This document shows positions 2,400-16,065 of a stretch of DNA of 21,719 nucleotides, piece after piece. The notes under the pieces are model-generated. The model did not search any database, was not told the DNA's origin, and saw nothing but the letters and a program-made list of their open reading frames with translations. Source of the DNA: a virus; IMG/VR virus record IMGVR_UViG_3300035180_003485, positions 1 through 21,719 of that record. The stretch is one strand, 5' to 3'. A program made the position numbers and the translations under genes. Numbering within the stretch: position 1 is the first letter of the stretch; every line of letters starts with the position of its first letter.

Positions 2400-2783
2400 T
2401 TAGAATCCAAAAGTTTGCTGTGACTTTGCAAGCGCGGCGTTCACTTGCGCTGCAACGTTCTTGATGTCAAACGCTAGGCTGCCATTGATCTGCTGCATGA
2501 AAGTATCCATTGCAGTGCTGCGGTACTTGCGAAGCTCTGCTCGTGCGGCTTCATAAGCGTGCGGCGCCTTTGTGGCTACGGCAGGATGCGCCGTCTTCTC
2601 CAACGCCCCAACCTTCGCTCGCTCTGCAGACGCTAAGGTGAAGAACGCCGAAGCACCAAGCAAGCGCTTGACACCTCGACAGTCGACCGCCCAAGTAAAC
2701 TTCTCGCACTGCACAATCTCGCATTCGATGACCAAGATCTGGCGCCACGGCCGCTTGAGGTTCACGTAGTAGATTGTTTTCAC
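2400..2783 (-). CDS. Unknown phage protein, 127 aa
   Basis: ATG at 2783 overlaps the phosphoesterase stop by ATGA, so the two are translationally coupled. The first 50 residues look like a small beta sheet (IYYVNLKRPW, ILVIECEIVQCEKFTWAVDC); residues 60-127 are Ala/Lys-rich helices. No known motif. Coupling to a phosphoesterase suggests a shared transcript, not necessarily a shared function. Confidence 0.6.
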   Translation of the reverse strand: MKTIYYVNLKRPWRQILVIECEIVQCEKFTWAVDCRGVKRLLGASAFFTLASAERAKVGALEKTAHPAVATKAPHAYEAARAELRKYRSTAMDTFMQQINGSLAFDIKNVAAQVNAALAKSQQTFGF

Positions 2784-3625
2784 AGCGAGTCAATCCTCAG
2801 CTGATGTTTCGGGTCATACAAGCCGTCGGTGCCTTCATATGCCTCATAACCTCTCGGGTTTGACAGCACTCGTACATTGTAAATCATGTAGTCAACTGGC
2901 CTATGAATATGCCCGTGAACCCACAGCTTCACATCAGCGCAATGAGTCGCGATGCTCTTTGACAGGTCTGTGAAGTAGGACGCGTTGAGCATCCTCTCGT
3001 GCGCATACTTGGGGTCAATGCTTTGCTCATGAGGAGCCATGTGCGTCATAATGATCACAGGCTGCCCAGGCACATCGGCAGCGCAGTTGTTGAAGATGAA
3101 CCGCGCAGTTTGACGGTGAATTTCAAACAAGTCCTCGGGCCGAATCTTGCGTCGAACCTTCGTGTCGCCGAACGTTGTGTACTTGAAGTCCATAATCGTG
3201 CTTCGACTGACTGACATCGCTACTTGATTGCGGCCGTAGTCAGTCCACAGCGTGCCGCCCACGAACTTGATGCCGCTGATCGTAGCGGTGCTCTGTTCTA
3301 AGAGCGTGACATTTGGCAGCAGCGCAGCAGCTTCACGTGCCTTGCGCACGGCAGACTGCAGGCTCAAGCCCCAATAGTCATGGTTGCCAAGCACAAGCAC
3401 AACATGCTCGAAGCGCTTGGCTATCCAGCTGATCCAGCTGTCACCGTCAAACATCACCTTGAAGGCAAGGTCGTTTCGCCATAAGTCACCCGCCAGCATG
3501 AGAATCGTGTCATGATCCTCAGGCAGCGGCGTAGGCGACCAAACCTGCTTCGGGTGCAAGTAGAACATGTTCCCGATGTCAAAGTCAAGGTGAACGTCGC
3601 TAAAGAGACGAAGATAGGTAGCCAT
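2780..3625 (-). CDS. Calcineurin-like metallophosphoesterase
   Basis: All signature motifs of the binuclear metallophosphoesterase fold are present in order: D-x-H (SDVHLD, Asp10 and His12), GD (AGDLW, Asp47), GNHD (80-83), a T-H pair (MTHMAPHE) and GHIH near the C terminus. At 281 residues it is the usual size. Such enzymes hydrolyse phosphomonoesters or diesters, including cyclic nucleotides and nucleic-acid ends; the substrate cannot be read from sequence. The start is ATG at 3625. A TAAAAT hexamer lies only six bases upstream (3632-3637) and there is no Shine-Dalgarno, so the mRNA may be leaderless. It heads a run of small overlapping genes. Confidence 0.9.
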   Translation of the reverse strand: MATYLRLFSDVHLDFDIGNMFYLHPKQVWSPTPLPEDHDTILMLAGDLWRNDLAFKVMFDGDSWISWIAKRFEHVVLVLGNHDYWGLSLQSAVRKAREAAALLPNVTLLEQSTATISGIKFVGGTLWTDYGRNQVAMSVSRSTIMDFKYTTFGDTKVRRKIRPEDLFEIHRQTARFIFNNCAADVPGQPVIIMTHMAPHEQSIDPKYAHERMLNASYFTDLSKSIATHCADVKLWVHGHIHRPVDYMIYNVRVLSNPRGYEAYEGTDGLYDPKHQLRIDSL

Positions 3626-3660: not shown

Positions 3661-4236
3661 CTAGCGCCGACGCTTTGAAAGGCAAAAGCTTAGCAGCGCT
3701 GCAAATACCAAGCCCAACGTTGACGGCTCGGGAACCTTGTGCCACCGAAGCCGCTTCTCCTCCTCTTCGAGAAGCTTGCGTTGCCGCTCTTCCTCTTCAG
3801 ACTTGAAGTTACGTTCGAGCTTGTCAATATGCTCAGGCACGTACAGAACCTTGGTGACTCGGCTGACATTACCGCAGACTGTAGGCACGATGATGCAGTG
3901 TTCAGCTTCACAGTACACGAGGCCACGTTCAGCTTTGCCGCCCCACTTTGCACGGCTAACATTTCCGCAGATTTGATTTCTGCCAAAGTGCATGTCCCGT
4001 AAGTTGTCATATGCAAATGCGCCGTTGATGTTATCAGCGGTGATCTCGGCTAAGTCATCATAGTCATGCTTAAGCATTCGAGCATGCAAGGCGTCCTGCA
4101 CAGGCTTGGGAATGTCTGTGTAGTTGTAGACAGCATCTGCAACGTTGCCTATGTAGCGGTTGGCTCCTGGTTGATCCCAGGAGCAAGCGGCGGTAGAGGC
4201 TATTGTTGATGCGATGAGAGCGGTAACGAGAGGCAA
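3661..4236 (-). CDS. MHFG-type PEP-CTERM domain protein
   Basis: The C terminus is a textbook PEP-CTERM sorting signal: V-P-E-P-S-T at residues 168-173, a hydrophobic helix (about 174-186) and terminal K-R-R-R. In bacteria this signal is recognised and cut by an exosortase in the inner membrane and directs export. The N terminus is hydrophobic (about residues 2-17) with Cys18, acting as a short signal or lipoprotein-like leader. The middle holds RDMHFG (81-85) and paired cysteines (90, 109, 114, 121); I recall MHFG-containing PEP-CTERM proteins as a named family in proteobacteria. A charged Glu/Lys/Arg helix (140-166) precedes the signal. The start is TTG at 4236, one base after the stop of the PurA-like gene, with GGAC ahead. 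Role in the phage unknown. Confidence 0.8.
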   Translation of the reverse strand: MPLVTALIASTIASTAACSWDQPGANRYIGNVADAVYNYTDIPKPVQDALHARMLKHDYDDLAEITADNINGAFAYDNLRDMHFGRNQICGNVSRAKWGGKAERGLVYCEAEHCIIVPTVCGNVSRVTKVLYVPEHIDKLERNFKSEEEERQRKLLEEEEKRLRWHKVPEPSTLGLVFAALLSFCLSKRRR

Positions 4237-4237
4237 T

Positions 4238-5521
4238 TTAAGTCCATGACTTGATATGTTGTGATGTCGGGCCGAAGCTACAGAAGGAGACCGAGATCTC
4301 TCGTCCTAGCTCGCGGGCCACAAACAGCGGCAGCTCAGCTGATGCAACGGTTGTCAAGACACCCGCAGCATTCACGACATTGACTTGAGCACCAAGCTGG
4401 TCAAGGCACGTGAGCATGAGCTGAGGACGCCGTACTACCGCGCCCTTATTTAGCACCGCGGGCGTGCTCAGCGCCCGGGTAGCATCTGCTGTGAGCAGGT
4501 CCTTCATCTGCTGAAGGTTGAGCGGCGCCTTGCGCAGTGCCCCCTGCCACATGTTTTCAATGTTTGTCAAGTCGTGCAGTGGCTTGTCGGTGATCGACTC
4601 ACCTTCTAGGTGCAACGGACCTGCGCCATGCCTTGTCAGGTAGCAACGGCTGATGTACAGCGGCTCGACTTCAAGAGCGCCGAGCTCAAAGGCCGCAACG
4701 GCGAGCGCCGAAGGCAAGCCGGTGATTGACCGGGTCACGTAAGGGAAGGTGCCCAGGAACTCGTCAAGAGCCAGACCTTGCGCGCCTTCAAACAACACAG
4801 CCTGGTCATGCTCGATTGACGCCTGCAGGGATTCAAGGCTATCCTTGTTGAGCATAATCAACGGCTCGACAAGCTCCTTCAACAGCTCGGCTTGCTTCAC
4901 AAAGTCAAGCTTGGTCGTGAGCACCGCTGAGTACAGCTGATGCTTGTTCAGGTCATCTTGGGTCAGACCAAGCGCTTCGAGGCGCTGAGGGACCCAACGT
5001 TCGACGATGAGCTTGAGGTCAGTCGCAAGCTGATCAGCTGTCCGAAGCACGACTTGCCAGAGCTTAAGCGGGTGACCTGCAAGGTTGCGCGTCACGGTCT
5101 CGTTGATGCCCATGCCGCACGAACCATGGCGCTCTTGCCCGCGTGACAGCTCGGCGATGGAGTTGAGCGCCATGTCATAGATCGTTGTTACGGGGCACAT
5201 CGGGTGCACCATGATGATCGGCGTCTCAGTCAACGTAGACTGGAGCTGAACCAGCTCTTTGCGAAGCGTGTACGGGTTGACGATGAACTGGCTCGACAAG
5301 TAGGTTCGAGCGTTGGGCGCAAACGAGCCTGCACCTACATGGCTAAAGACGTGACGGCGACCATCACCGGTCTGAACGGTGTGGCCGGCTTGAGAGCCAC
5401 CATTGAACCTGACGATGAGCGGTCGTTGGCCTTTTGCAGCCTGCTCACGCGCCAGGTAGTCAATGGTTAGGCCCTTGCCTTCATCGCCGTAGTTCGCGCC
5501 TATGATTGCTATAGCTCTCAT
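4238..5521 (-). CDS. Adenylosuccinate synthetase-like enzyme (PurA family)
   Basis: PurA joins IMP and aspartate using GTP to make adenylosuccinate. Visible landmarks: Y-G-D-E-G-K-G at residues 11-17 (catalytic Asp13), QAGHT with the catalytic-type His47, GMGI in place of the GRGIGP loop, FEGAQG...GTFPYVT matching the IMP-binding segment, GAGP, T-C-L-D in the position of the guanine-recognising T-K-L-D, and S-x-G-P near the end. The length of 427 is close to bacterial PurA (about 430), but the middle is strongly diverged. Phage PurZ, which makes the precursor of 2-aminoadenine, usually lacks this Asp, so this looks more PurA-like. Start ATG at 5521 has CAGGAG eight bases upstream. It could boost host purine supply or act in a base-modification route. 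Confidence 0.85.
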   Translation of the reverse strand: MRAIAIIGANYGDEGKGLTIDYLAREQAAKGQRPLIVRFNGGSQAGHTVQTGDGRRHVFSHVGAGSFAPNARTYLSSQFIVNPYTLRKELVQLQSTLTETPIIMVHPMCPVTTIYDMALNSIAELSRGQERHGSCGMGINETVTRNLAGHPLKLWQVVLRTADQLATDLKLIVERWVPQRLEALGLTQDDLNKHQLYSAVLTTKLDFVKQAELLKELVEPLIMLNKDSLESLQASIEHDQAVLFEGAQGLALDEFLGTFPYVTRSITGLPSALAVAAFELGALEVEPLYISRCYLTRHGAGPLHLEGESITDKPLHDLTNIENMWQGALRKAPLNLQQMKDLLTADATRALSTPAVLNKGAVVRRPQLMLTCLDQLGAQVNVVNAAGVLTTVASAELPLFVARELGREISVSFCSFGPTSQHIKSWT

Positions 5522-5567: not shown

Positions 5568-6554
5568 TTACCCTTCAGACGCCTTAATGGCGTTCTGGAA
5601 AGCGTGACGCAGAGCGGCTGGGCGTGTCGATTCAGCGATGACCTCTTCCATGTCCCGGCCCTTGACGATCTTCATGGTTGCGAGAACCAGCTCGTCCAGG
5701 TCTTCGAAGTCCGACAGGAAGAGCACCGACGTGCCCATCAGCTTCGTCCAGGAGTCCTTCACTTGGCGCGGCCGCGAGCTGCAGTAGCTGCCCTGCTCGA
5801 TCACGATGTGGAAGACGTGGTAGTTCTTCTCAGCCAACTTCAGCGTTTGCGCCGGCGTCAGGTCGCTGTACTCGCCAGGGCCGAACGTGCGTTCTTGCTC
5901 GGCGATCGTCAAGGTCACGTACGGTGCCTGCTCATCGCCCATCGTGAAGAGGAAGCCCTTCTCGCCGCGCTTCTCGAAGCTGTCGGTGATCGTGCGCTTG
6001 GCAGCGAAGTACCAAGGCATGTCATATGCCTCGGAGTCATTGCCGCCGCCGTCACCCACGAGATAGATGCGGCGCAGCTGCTCGAGGATGCGGATGTCGG
6101 CCTCGAACTGTGACACCTGCAAGGGCGCGTGCGAGCTGTCACGCACGTCATCGACGCCCATGAACATTATGTGCGGGCTGGTCACCGGCTGCTCTTCGAG
6201 CACGCGCGTCATCAGCTTTGGCAAAGCCTTGGTCGCGATCAGGCCGGCGTACTTACCCATCGAGCCAGTCACATCGAGCGCGAGGATCACCGGCGTTGAC
6301 TTGGGGTTATCGGCTGAGTCGCAAGACTCACGAATCATGATGTTCCTCGGGTCGAATTCAGGCGGCATGCGGTTGCTGCTGAACACCTCTTGCAACGGCT
6401 TTTCGCGGTACGCCGTGCGGATTGCATACGACTCGTAGTCGTCATTTGTCCAAGATCCATGTCCCACATTATCTCCTTCGCCTAAGTAGGCATATGAATT
6501 ACAAATACACTGCTGGTGATCGTTCACCCTACTGAGATCATAACTAAACGTCAT
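5568..6554 (-). CDS. von Willebrand factor A (VWA) domain protein
   Basis: The central region begins with a hydrophobic strand followed by D-V-T-G-S-M (residues 94-99 from the ATG at 6554), a MIDAS metal-binding motif close to the D-x-S-x-S/D-x-T-G-S form. It continues with alternating strands and helices, including IMFMGVDDVRD, IYLVGDGGGNDSE, FLFTMGDE and VLFLSDFEDLDEL, typical of a VWA Rossmann-like fold with metal-coordinating Asp/Thr loops. The N-terminal 70 residues are polar, aromatic and family-specific. An in-frame ATG at 6620 would overlap the upstream gene stop; 6554 avoids this. VWA proteins usually act as metal-dependent interaction modules, often with AAA+ ATPases. Partner here unknown; neighbours carry HIRAN and Met-rich proteins. 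Confidence 0.8.
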   Translation of the reverse strand: MTFSYDLSRVNDHQQCICNSYAYLGEGDNVGHGSWTNDDYESYAIRTAYREKPLQEVFSSNRMPPEFDPRNIMIRESCDSADNPKSTPVILALDVTGSMGKYAGLIATKALPKLMTRVLEEQPVTSPHIMFMGVDDVRDSSHAPLQVSQFEADIRILEQLRRIYLVGDGGGNDSEAYDMPWYFAAKRTITDSFEKRGEKGFLFTMGDEQAPYVTLTIAEQERTFGPGEYSDLTPAQTLKLAEKNYHVFHIVIEQGSYCSSRPRQVKDSWTKLMGTSVLFLSDFEDLDELVLATMKIVKGRDMEEVIAESTRPAALRHAFQNAIKASEG

Positions 6555-6594
6555 TGTAAAACTTTTATGATCTTGGGTTTTGGTTTGAAAAGCT

Positions 6595-7047
6595 TTAAGG
6601 TTTGTTGATAGTCTGCGCATACTTGCGAGCTATTCGTTCATAGATCATGCCGATGCCTTGCACGTTGAATGACGTGCTCCACTTGAAGGCGTCCTTGCTG
6701 GCGATCGGCTGCATCGAAACGACAATCACATGATTTTGATTGCGCTCAATGCCAATTTCATCGAGAAACTTCTTGATGGCTGACGCTTCTGGCGCTGCCA
6801 CATGCCCAAGCTTCTTGACCCCGTCGTGCAGCATTACCGCATCTTTGTCGAATGGGTTGTTCACGTCTTGCACGAGAAACAGTAGCTGGTCAACAGTGCG
6901 CCGAGTAGACGCTTCGACTATCCTGTCAAATGCTTGGTTCCGCTCGTAGTACTTCATGCCTACGATTGTCACCTTTGCCAGCAGCAAGCTGACCGAGGAG
7001 GGAAGCTGCTCAACGCTGTCATAGTACCGGCGTTGAGCCTCATCCAT
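6595..7047 (-). CDS. HIRAN-domain protein
   Basis: Residues about 24-97 match the HIRAN pattern: a first strand V-T-I-V-G, a variable helix, L-L-F-L-V-Q-D, then N-P-F-D-K-D-A-V (64-71), a short strand and K-L-G-H-V (79-83) followed by a helix. HIRAN domains bind DNA ends, notably 3' single-stranded ends in HLTF/Rad5-type helicases, and occur as stand-alone proteins in bacteria and phages. The 50-residue C-terminal extension is unassigned. It lies 40 bases ahead of the VWA gene and 14 bases after the Met-rich gene, so the three probably share a transcript. Role inferred: recognising damaged or processed DNA. Confidence 0.7.
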   Translation of the reverse strand: MDEAQRRYYDSVEQLPSSVSLLLAKVTIVGMKYYERNQAFDRIVEASTRRTVDQLLFLVQDVNNPFDKDAVMLHDGVKKLGHVAAPEASAIKKFLDEIGIERNQNHVIVVSMQPIASKDAFKWSTSFNVQGIGMIYERIARKYAQTINKP

Positions 7048-8491: not shown

Positions 8492-9919
8492 TTACTTGTC
8501 GTCACGAATGCGCACGAACTGCGGGAAGCGAACAGCGTAGGCGGTTTCACCCTCAGCCAGGCTGAGCTCTTGGCCTTCGAGCATCGCTGTCTTGTTCACG
8601 AACTCGCCTTGATGGTTCCACACGTACGCACGGAACCACTGATCACGGTTGAGCGTGTTCAAGTCAAGGCCTTCGGCTTTTGCCTTCTCGTCGATGAAGG
8701 CCTTCAGCTCAGGACCGCTGACCTTGAAGCCGCCGCAGTTTGTGCGGATGAACTTGCCGTTTTCGTCAAAACCTTCCAGCTTGATACCGCCCAGCTTGTC
8801 TTCGTTCTTGGTGCCTGGGTCGCCGGCGTAGAACCCGGTGATTTTCAGGTCAACGTCAAGGATCGGCTTCCACTTGAACCAGAAGTTCGAGCGGTCCCAT
8901 TCATACACGCCGTGCATGTTCTTGATGATCAGCCCTTCGCCCAAGCCATTGAGCGTGCCGTCGGCGTTGATGCCGTCTTTCAGGACCTCGGCGTAGAAGG
9001 CGCGCAGTTCAGCGATGCTGTAACAGATCTTGGACTTCGACTTGATGATCTTTTGCAGGTCACAAGCTTCGATGATGCTGAGGACGCCGTCCGACCGACG
9101 ATGCTGCGGGTCGGTTTTCAGGCGAAGCTTCCAGGTAGACAGCAGCATCCAGTCAAAGGCGTAGAAGCGGAGGTTTGCCTTGGCTTCGTCATTGCCCGAC
9201 CCCTTGGCGCGAGCGGTCTCGTAGAAGGACTTGCCCAGGACCTCGCCGTCAAGCACGAACGGTTGGCCGATGTACTTTTCAGCCTTGACGAGCTCGTCAT
9301 CGAAGAGGCCGTCGCACCAATCAGCTTTCTTGCCAGAGCGCGTGAGGTATGTAACCTTGCCGTTCTCCACGAGAGCGAGCAAGCGCTTGCCGTCATACTT
9401 GGACTCGGCGATCACGGGGAAGCGAAGGCCGTACTTCTTCTCAAGGATTGCGGGAGTCAGGACGATGTCGTGCTTGCGGACGGCTTCGGGCTTCTCGTCA
9501 ATCTTGGCAGCGAGCATTAGCTCGAAGCTGGGAAAGTCCACGGTAGGGTAGAGCTTCGAGAACACCGTTTCGCCCGCGCCGCACTTGAGGTCCTTAAGGA
9601 GGACACGTTGCAGCGCCTTGGCCGTGTGGACGGTGTACTGGCCGAGCACAGCGGTCACTGCGATGCGTGCGGCGTTGCCGGTGAGCGTGCGATCCGTCAG
9701 CTGGTTGAGCAGCTCGAAGAACTGGTCATAGCTCGGATCAGTCGAGGCAAACGCCTTCGGCTGGTCAAACTTCTTGATGTTGAAGACGCGGTAGGGGTTC
9801 AGCGCTTCCTGTACAAGCTTGAGCTCGTCGCCTTGGAGGCCGCTCAGCGCAGCAAACTTTGGCTCTTGCTTTGAGTGCTTTTCAGCTTCGAACACTGCTT
9901 CGGCAAAAGTCTTAGCCAT
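8492..9919 (-). CDS. ATP-dependent DNA ligase
   Basis: Seals 3'-OH/5'-phosphate nicks using ATP, joining Okazaki fragments during phage replication. Nucleotidyltransferase motifs are in order: motif I E-S-K-Y-D-G-K-R with Lys174 as the adenylated residue, motif III V-L-D-G-E-V-L-G, an R-F-Y-A-F-D strand (IIIa), motif IV G-E-G-L-I-I-K and motif V F-W-F-K-W-K-P. About 170 residues of N-terminal DNA-binding helices precede motif I and an OB-fold-sized C-terminal domain follows. 475 residues is close to T4 gp30 (487). Start ATG at 9919 has TAGGAA upstream and a TTTACA-N17-TACAAT promoter. It leads a chain of three small genes. Confidence 0.95.
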   Translation of the reverse strand: MAKTFAEAVFEAEKHSKQEPKFAALSGLQGDELKLVQEALNPYRVFNIKKFDQPKAFASTDPSYDQFFELLNQLTDRTLTGNAARIAVTAVLGQYTVHTAKALQRVLLKDLKCGAGETVFSKLYPTVDFPSFELMLAAKIDEKPEAVRKHDIVLTPAILEKKYGLRFPVIAESKYDGKRLLALVENGKVTYLTRSGKKADWCDGLFDDELVKAEKYIGQPFVLDGEVLGKSFYETARAKGSGNDEAKANLRFYAFDWMLLSTWKLRLKTDPQHRRSDGVLSIIEACDLQKIIKSKSKICYSIAELRAFYAEVLKDGINADGTLNGLGEGLIIKNMHGVYEWDRSNFWFKWKPILDVDLKITGFYAGDPGTKNEDKLGGIKLEGFDENGKFIRTNCGGFKVSGPELKAFIDEKAKAEGLDLNTLNRDQWFRAYVWNHQGEFVNKTAMLEGQELSLAEGETAYAVRFPQFVRIRDDK

Positions 9920-14670: not shown

Positions 14671-15313
14671 TTAAAAAGAATAATTTTTCTGGAAAATGCG
14701 GATCTTGCACTGCCAGCCACGGTTTGAGTCATGCTTGAAGCAAGCCTCGAGCGGTGCGTCCGGCTTCTTGAGGACCAGGCCTTCATCTTCAGCCTGCAAA
14801 CCATCAAACAGCTTATCGAAGCCGCTTTTGAAGTTCTTAGCGAGCGATATGTACTTGTGAATGCGGATCTGATCACGCTCGGGGGCGAAGCCGTCTTTCA
14901 GATGTGCCCAACGATCACGAAGCATCGCTTGACGCTTGGTGAATGGGACACCAACGAGCTGCACGCCGTTATGCACGATCTGGTCAAAGATGTACAGCTG
15001 ATCCTTGATGTGCGGCGTTTTGCTGTGAATCAGCTCGGCGACAAAAACATTCCAACCTGGGCCAAGGTTGCTGAAGAAGTCAATGTGCTCTTGCTTCGGC
15101 GTCCACAGCTTGTGGTCATCGCCGCTGGGTTGATGCTCAGCATGACGGGTCTTGAAGATGACCTGGTTGCCTTTGGCGAAGATGACAGTGCACGTCCCAT
15201 TTTTTTTTTGTTTGCGCCAGCCAGTGCTGTCGTTCAAAATGGCTCAACATTGCCCGAGGGCACTTAGCTTCAGGTCGAGGTGGAAATAAATATGAGTAGG
15301 CGTTGTATTCCAT
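14671..15313 (-). CDS. ATP-dependent ligase-like nucleotidyltransferase, frame broken at an A10 run
   Basis: ATG at 15313 with AAGGAG upstream and a TTTACA-N17-TATAAT promoter begins MEYNAYSYLFPPRPE and reaches H-W-L-A-Q-T-K. A run of ten A (plus-strand T at 15200-15209) then puts the rest one base out of phase. One A fewer would join it to K-K-N-G-T, completing ligase motif I (W-x-A-x-x-K-x-N-G). The second frame carries motif III (F-V-A-E-L), a Y-I-F-D strand, motif IV (D-E-G-L-V-L-K-K) and motif V (W-Q-C-K-I-R), and stops at 14671. Without the shift only a TTG-started fragment (from 15237) is made. About 213 residues when joined: a lone adenylation domain without an OB fold. Could be sequencing error, slippage-controlled, or decaying. 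Confidence 0.75.
15285..15292 (+). promoter_or_regulatory. Late-promoter-like AATAAATA ahead of the HNH homing gene
   Basis: Seven of eight bases of TATAAATA, about 75 bases upstream of the ATG at 15367, inside the divergent ligase-like gene. T4 homing endonucleases are often late-expressed, which fits, but a single motif is weak evidence. Confidence 0.3.
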
Positions 15314-15336
15314 GTATCTTCTCCTTGATTAAGATG

Positions 15337-15365
15337 ATTATAATCCTAAATCAATCAAATGTAAA
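15337..15365 (-). promoter_or_regulatory. Promoter of the ligase-like gene: TTTACA-N17-TATAAT
   Basis: -35 at 15360-15365, -10 at 15337-15342 on the minus strand with 17 bp spacing; about 23 bases to the ATG at 15313 with AAGGAG between. The -10 is within the palindrome GATTATAATC. Supports 15313 as the true start of the ligase-like gene despite the frame break. Confidence 0.7.
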
Positions 15366-15366
15366 C

Positions 15367-16065
15367 ATGCTTCCTGAACCTAAATCACATCTAAATTTAC
15401 AACGATACCTTAAATTGATTGCACACGCCAAGAAGCAATGTGCTTCAGGCTATCTTGAGAAGCATCATGTACTGCCTAAAGCAATGGGAGGTTCAAACGA
15501 TGAATCAAACATTGCTGTGTTAACAGCAAGACAACATTACATTGCTCATAAGCTTCTTTGGAAGGCGTATAAGACACGAGAAACTGCAAGAGCATTCTTC
15601 TTCATGTCCCATAGAACAAACTCTAAGTCTAAACTTAGCTCTAAGAGCTATGAAGCTCTTAAAGAAGGTATGTCGGTATCTGACATTACTAAACAAAAGC
15701 TTTCAAATGCATTCAAAGGGAAAAAACGACCGCCGTTTACAGCAGAAACTAAAGCAAAAATGTCCGCTGTAAGAATTGGAATCGAGTTTAGCAATGAAAC
15801 AAAAGCTAAAATGTCAGAAAGCGCTAAACGGCGAGTAAGATGCTTGCATAGCTTAGAAAGCAAAGAGAAGATGAAAATTGCTGCAAAGGCACGCGAACTT
15901 GCAAAGAAAGCTGCTGGCTACATTGTCTCAGAAGAGACAAGACAAAAGCTTTCAATCGCAAGTAAAAGAGCTCACAAAAATAAAGCCGACCTTCTCGTTA
16001 CTCTCCGAAACAATAAGCCCGCATTGCAGCCTTGTCAGAAACCGAGTACAGTTTCGTTGTCTTGA
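15367..16065 (+). CDS. HNH homing endonuclease with NUMOD3 repeats
   Basis: The N-terminal domain has E-K-H-H-V-L-P-K...G-G-S-N-D-x-S-N-I-A-V-L-T-A-R-x-H-Y-I-A-H, the HNH form common in T-even-type homing genes (His33/34, Asn48, His57). About five NUMOD3 repeats with the core E-T-K-x-K-M-S follow and bind target DNA. ATG at 15367 is chosen; earlier GTG/ATG codons overlap the divergent ligase-like start. The gene is AT-rich, unlike its neighbours. Its last 23 codons are the antisense of the winged-helix gene end, so the natural C terminus may have been replaced at insertion. Probably a mobile gene cutting near this site in related genomes. Confidence 0.85.
   Translation: MLPEPKSHLNLQRYLKLIAHAKKQCASGYLEKHHVLPKAMGGSNDESNIAVLTARQHYIAHKLLWKAYKTRETARAFFFMSHRTNSKSKLSSKSYEALKEGMSVSDITKQKLSNAFKGKKRPPFTAETKAKMSAVRIGIEFSNETKAKMSESAKRRVRCLHSLESKEKMKIAAKARELAKKAAGYIVSEETRQKLSIASKRAHKNKADLLVTLRNNKPALQPCQKPSTVSLS

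Follow-up and report, generated by a model that had tools for sequence, protein, structure and literature searches.

Exosortase sorting is a bacterial envelope system, and the functions of its cargo are mostly unknown. Here we ask what a protein with the sorting tag of this system is doing in a phage genome. The window, by which we mean the whole stretch of DNA that was analysed, is a 21.7-kb virus record from IMG/VR, a metagenomic fragment, and it encodes a PEP-CTERM protein of the MHFG family. We consider it reasonably probable that a large, apparently lytic phage of exosortase-bearing Burkholderiales acquired the gene from a host and keeps it as an accessory (moron-type) gene, and that the product is an exosortase substrate.

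The gene and its product

The initial annotation placed the gene at positions 3661-4236 and gave no strand. These coordinates are right, and the gene is on the minus strand, running from 4236 to 3661 (Table 1); the plus strand over the same positions is interrupted by stops. The TTG start follows one base after the purA stop. This choice of start is backed by similar N-terminal lengths across the family, as the cellular members measured have 17-20 residues before the first cysteine, near the distance seen in the window copy. In the divergent relative L077, described below, the MHFG gene begins with an ATG that overlaps the purA stop, at a position equivalent to the TTG of the window. Based on these comparisons a TTG start appears plausible.

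Table 1. Features of the MHFG locus and its neighbours, in window coordinates
Feature	Position	Strand	Description
Metallophosphoesterase	2780..3625	-	PF00149, phrog_1649; directly downstream of the MHFG gene, same direction
MHFG family PEP-CTERM gene, phage-encoded	3661..4236	-	191 aa, TTG start, profile matches
PEP-CTERM signal, residues 168-191	3664..3735	-	VPEPST, hydrophobic helix, KRRR; TIGR02595 and PF07589 above cut-off
Linker, residues about 132-167	3736..3843	-	Charged, helical, poor in Pro/Gly/Ser/Thr
MHFG domain, residues 18-131	3844..4185	-	Two helices followed by a beta-rich core; retains five cysteines
Hydrophobic N-terminal leader, residues 1-17	4186..4236	-	No Lys/Arg; like the leaders of cellular members
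PurA/PurZ-like adenylosuccinate synthetase	4238..5521	-	phrog_1211 (E=3.3e-63), PF00709; directly upstream of the MHFG gene, same direction
VWA-type protein of the VWA-purA pair	5568..6620	-	phrog_2971; syntenic in other phages

The protein matches the MHFG profile NF038119 with 191.5 bits (E=3.4e-56, cut-off 100), and residues 16-151 align with positions 2-139 of the 260 in the profile. The linker half of the profile is left unmatched, and the tail is caught by separate models, TIGR02595 (26.2 bits, cut-off 16) and PF07589 (22.8 bits, cut-off 20.7). Matches restricted to the N-terminal half of NF038119 are also common among cellular members. The parts that the initial annotation had described are all present, namely the RDMHFG motif, the cysteines (C18, C90, C109, C114 and C121), the hydrophobic N-terminal leader (MPLVTALIASTIASTAA) and a tripartite tail of VPEPST, hydrophobic stretch and KRRR; its assignment to PEP-CTERM and MHFG families is borne out by the profile searches.

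The MHFG domain (residues 18-131) is modelled by AlphaFold2 with a pLDDT of 93.3 and a pTM of 0.87. Across 59 sequences C90, C109 and C114 are invariant and C18 nearly so, and these conserved cysteines suggest that the domain resides in an oxidising compartment. Fold searches against the PDB, using the domain and the whole model, and against BFVD, using the whole model, returned nothing at E<=0.001; for this reason the galectin-like and FABP-like labels that appear in the fold lists were set aside. A phmmer search of the window protein against the PDB gave chance-level matches only. The modelled fold is thus without a close PDB match and carries no functional hint.

In eight genomes (L052-L059) the MHFG domain is found at the N terminus of proteins of about 700 aa, behind a leader of the same kind. 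We compared three of these with Pfam and read five sequences; the three compared are S8 subtilases with Big_7 (Ig) domains. Most of the eight genomes hold an ordinary MHFG gene too. The subtilases share the domain and the leader type with the window protein, but differ from it in the fusion to subtilase and Big_7 domains, in that a PEP-CTERM tail was not seen, and in the loss of C121. Since these leader-bearing fusions are of a secreted type, they support the view of MHFG as an extracytoplasmic module.

Phage context of the locus

The phage context claimed for the gene stands. The stretch is a virus record, the VWA-purA pair is syntenic with that of Vibrio, Rhizobium and Mycobacterium phages of about 150-207 kb, and the window also encodes a phage clamp loader (phrog_168) and a fragment of a phage DNA polymerase (phrog_11778). 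The MHFG gene sits in a run of minus-strand phage genes, inside the purA operon. PEP-CTERM genes usually, though not obligatorily, stand alone in an operon of their own behind a long intergenic stretch (PMC1569441); the window gene, packed against purA within a run of phage genes, departs from this layout.

In the Vibrio and Rhizobium phages, which are cultured relatives, purA is followed by other genes, and there is no MHFG gene at the locus. Using the nearby VWA protein as query, we recovered L077, a divergent relative with the same gene order as the window: VWA, purA, MHFG PEP-CTERM and metallophosphoesterase. Identity between the two is 61% for purA, 59% for VWA and 54% for the metallophosphoesterase, and the genes that they have in common besides MHFG are mostly only 40-65% identical.

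Some further genes of the window should be mentioned. The best PHROG of the PurA-like synthetase is labelled '2-aminooxy adenylosuccinate synthetase', and the NCBI PurZ model gives it a score of 54.9 against a cut-off of 300. An HNH/NUMOD3 homing-endonuclease-like gene is encoded on the plus strand at 15280-16065, with a GC of 0.39 against 0.52 for the phage. Two different ligase-like genes, encoding a DNA ligase and a shorter ligase/capping-enzyme-like protein, are located at 8492-9919 and 14671-15237.

MHFG genes in other viral records

Besides L077, alignment-based searches found relatives of the MHFG gene in 15 IMG/VR records, L064-L076, L088 (238 kb) and L092 (369 kb), which makes 16 virus records other than the window. 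The same stretch is present twice, as L074 and L076, and the pairs L065/L069 and L064/L068 are closely related; there are thus fewer independent phages than records, about ten by our reading of shared genes. Among the phage hallmarks that we found in these records are genes for primase, DNA polymerase, helicase, tape measure, terminase, endolysin and tRNA nucleotidyltransferase; a terminase model was matched in four viral records, and the 369-kb record has T4-type genes for capsid (gp23-type) and terminase.

NF038119 was matched by all 15 proteins of alignment A2, and TIGR02595 by 13 of them. The proteins of L088 and L092 match NF038119, that of L092 also TIGR02595. No PEP-CTERM model detected the tails of L070 and L088. 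The phage copies are under purifying selection, with dN/dS values of 0.27-0.41 among them. Across the phages we searched for genes that are conserved next to MHFG, and found none.

No MHFG gene turned up among 50,697 reference phages or in PHROGs, and tblastn searches gave zero matches, both with two different phage copies against the reference phages and with the window copy against plasmids. A single-protein search of IMG/VR also returned nothing, because the patterns were too specific.

The 369-kb phage (IMG/VR 3300045971_000577) encodes a second, unrelated PEP-CTERM protein (L093:4249-5025, minus strand), whose signal peptide, MIKKLLTSLALAVATLSASA, looks classical and whose gene lies about 111 kb from the MHFG gene. 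The second PEP-CTERM match of a 95-kb record, at 81312-81383, was not counted; a long ORF runs over it on the opposite strand.

Cellular carriers and exosortase

By direct search the nearest cellular matches come from Burkholderiales/Rubrivivax MAGs, with 54-57% identity over the domain. Sampling the taxonomic family of one such MAG (Burkholderiales) gave MHFG genes in 51 of 401 genomes; a genus sample gave them in 13 of 60 genomes, and a class sample in one of 369, this one being the centre genome itself. Cellular MHFG genes are concentrated in one Burkholderiales family.

The initial annotation predicted an exosortase-bearing host and suggested that the enzyme be looked for in both host and phage. 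The prediction agrees with what we found in the MHFG-bearing clade: 57 of 63 genomes with an MHFG gene encode an exosortase (TIGR02602 above cut-off), mostly two each, as against 17 of 61 genomes of the same family without one (Fisher p=3.6e-13, relatedness ignored). The other six carriers have no exosortase above the cut-off, the completeness of these genomes not being given. The initial annotation had named two findings that would refute it, a lack of matches to PEP-CTERM HMMs and a host clade devoid of exosortase; we checked for both, and neither came out against it. None of the 17 viral records, most of which are fragments, encodes an exosortase, and the phages would thus depend on the enzyme of the host. 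In one cellular genome, G796, two MHFG genes lie in tandem (L051:1453-3134), and an exosortase was not matched at E<=1e-5.

Probable export of the phage protein

In the PEP-CTERM route, a signal peptide is thought to take the protein across the inner membrane, after which the C-terminal helix anchors it and exosortase handles it (PMC1569441). With relatives of the MHFG gene in sixteen other virus records, it is probable that viruses make use of this export pathway of their hosts, and what the phage most likely does, as read from the sequences, is to supply a substrate to the host exosortase. In brief, the protein would be produced from the purA operon during infection, and the short leader would take it across the inner membrane. 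Disulphides would then form, the C-terminal helix would hold the protein, and the host exosortase would cut it and pass the product to the cell surface or the exopolysaccharide (EPS). Taken as one route, we judge this sequence of steps to be probable.

The leader of the window protein is 17 aa long, with a best 8-residue mean hydropathy of 2.45 and zero Lys/Arg; those of cellular members are 17-20 aa long and free of Lys/Arg in nine of nine measured. Being short and uncharged, the window leader would count as a weak Sec signal by textbook standards. A lipobox at C18 was considered and discarded, as PQC or PSC stands at that site in many members.

Three phage proteins (L067:1897-2547, L070:9995-10633 and L073:9992-10678) have no such leader. 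Their N terminus reads M-x-x-(A/D)-C, with the start four residues before the first cysteine, and a search of every upstream frame gave no hydrophobic leader. These proteins would either do without export or be exported by other means. In the tree the window copy groups closest to one of them, L067 (97/92). Leaderless copies would fit a role of the phage MHFG domain at the inner membrane or its cytoplasmic face, with the C-terminal helix as a tether and exosortase incidental. We regard this as improbable, as the hydrophobic leader is retained in most phage copies, the conserved cysteines suggest an oxidising compartment, exosortase is almost always present in the cellular carriers, and the subtilase fusions imply secretion.

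Another way to read the tail is as a decoy, a small substrate that floods the host exosortase, blocks the maturation of 30 or more PEP-CTERM surface proteins of the host and so stops remodelling of the surface or EPS. The three closest carrier genomes would offer such targets, with 34-39 family-model matches of which nearly all are C-terminal PEP-CTERM ones. The linker could be read in the same direction. That of the window protein (41 residues as measured) is predicted helical, with 7% Pro/Gly/Ser/Thr and 54% charged residues, and it differs from all of the 24 other proteins measured, where Pro/Gly/Ser/Thr make up 31-62%; the window copy has thus kept the signal and lost the long Pro/Ser-rich linker. 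In other respects it resembles the bacterial NF038119 proteins, sharing the domain, the cysteines, the MHFG and VPTVC motifs, the short uncharged leader and the PEP-CTERM tail, but it is phage-encoded in a purA operon, and its linker is short, charged and helical where theirs is long and rich in Pro/Gly/Ser/Thr. The decoy is likewise improbable in our view. A tail alone would suffice for it, whereas the MHFG domain is intact, with all cysteines and constrained evolution, and L070 and L088 retain the domain despite degraded tails.

Origin of the phage copies

In the tree L077 stands beside two cellular proteins (92/85). The phage labels require seven changes on this tree (bootstrap 5-7), in which long branches are present, and topology tests rejected neither a single viral clade (p-AU 0.31) nor a grouping of the window copy with L077 (p-AU 0.31). 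Several acquisitions, or exchange between phage and host, seem the likelier history behind the phage copies.

Repeated acquisition, together with the absence of the gene from the locus in cultured relatives, would also be expected of a passenger, a host gene that was captured recently and has no function in the phage. We find this very unlikely, since the window and L077 share the locus despite mostly 40-65% identity elsewhere, and the gene recurs in many phages with its copies under purifying selection. The composition of the gene (GC 0.525, GC3 0.58; window GC 0.518) is phage-like, unlike that of GC-rich hosts. That a host gene was misjoined to a phage contig in assembly or binning, as could happen with a metagenomic fragment, is scarcely credible. 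The gene is positioned inside the purA operon one base off the purA stop, MHFG genes are also present inside the 238-kb and 369-kb records, and the identical arrangement on the independent contig L077 all but refutes such a misjoin.

Possible roles at the cell surface

We return to the reading of the protein as cargo for the host exosortase. Roles reported for PEP-CTERM proteins are EPS binding at the cell surface, flocculation and biofilm formation (PMC9850573, PMC12188702). PepA (NF033554), associated with flocculation in Zoogloea and Aquincola (PMC9850573), resembles the window protein in its PEP-CTERM tail and a possible EPS-linked role. The match between the two is restricted to the C-terminal 27 residues (16.4 bits against a cut-off of 80), and their domains are unrelated.

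Once at the surface, the phage protein might alter the interface between EPS and outer surface, and this could lead to poorer adsorption of further phages or changed aggregation of the infected cell. We hold this particular outcome to be rather unlikely, and the leading guesses for a surface role are that it excludes other phages or that it changes the EPS. Envelope proteins for superinfection exclusion, such as SieA of P22 (PMC10883804), are phage-encoded and made in infection or lysogeny. The window protein, also phage-encoded, is likened to them by description and not by sequence, and we found no exosortase-routed superinfection-exclusion protein described in the literature searched.

The bacterial MHFG PEP-CTERM family is already known. 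Its occurrence as phage cargo appears to be new to the literature searched, where we found no description of phage-borne PEP-CTERM cargo; the search covered terms in titles and abstracts and left most subscription journals uncovered, which makes this weak evidence.

Implications

It is possible, and we say so tentatively, that the host exosortase pathway serves phages as a general delivery route for dedicated sorting-tagged cargo with which they reshape the infected cell's surface or EPS. The candidates for such cargo are the MHFG protein and the second PEP-CTERM protein of the 369-kb phage. That one cargo family recurs across many phages suggests that it matters in encounters between phage and host. 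As the MHFG protein is small and well-folding, its processing by exosortase, its role at the surface and its effect on phage adsorption could be studied side by side. As a marker, the gene may help to link metagenomic phages with exosortase-bearing Burkholderiales.
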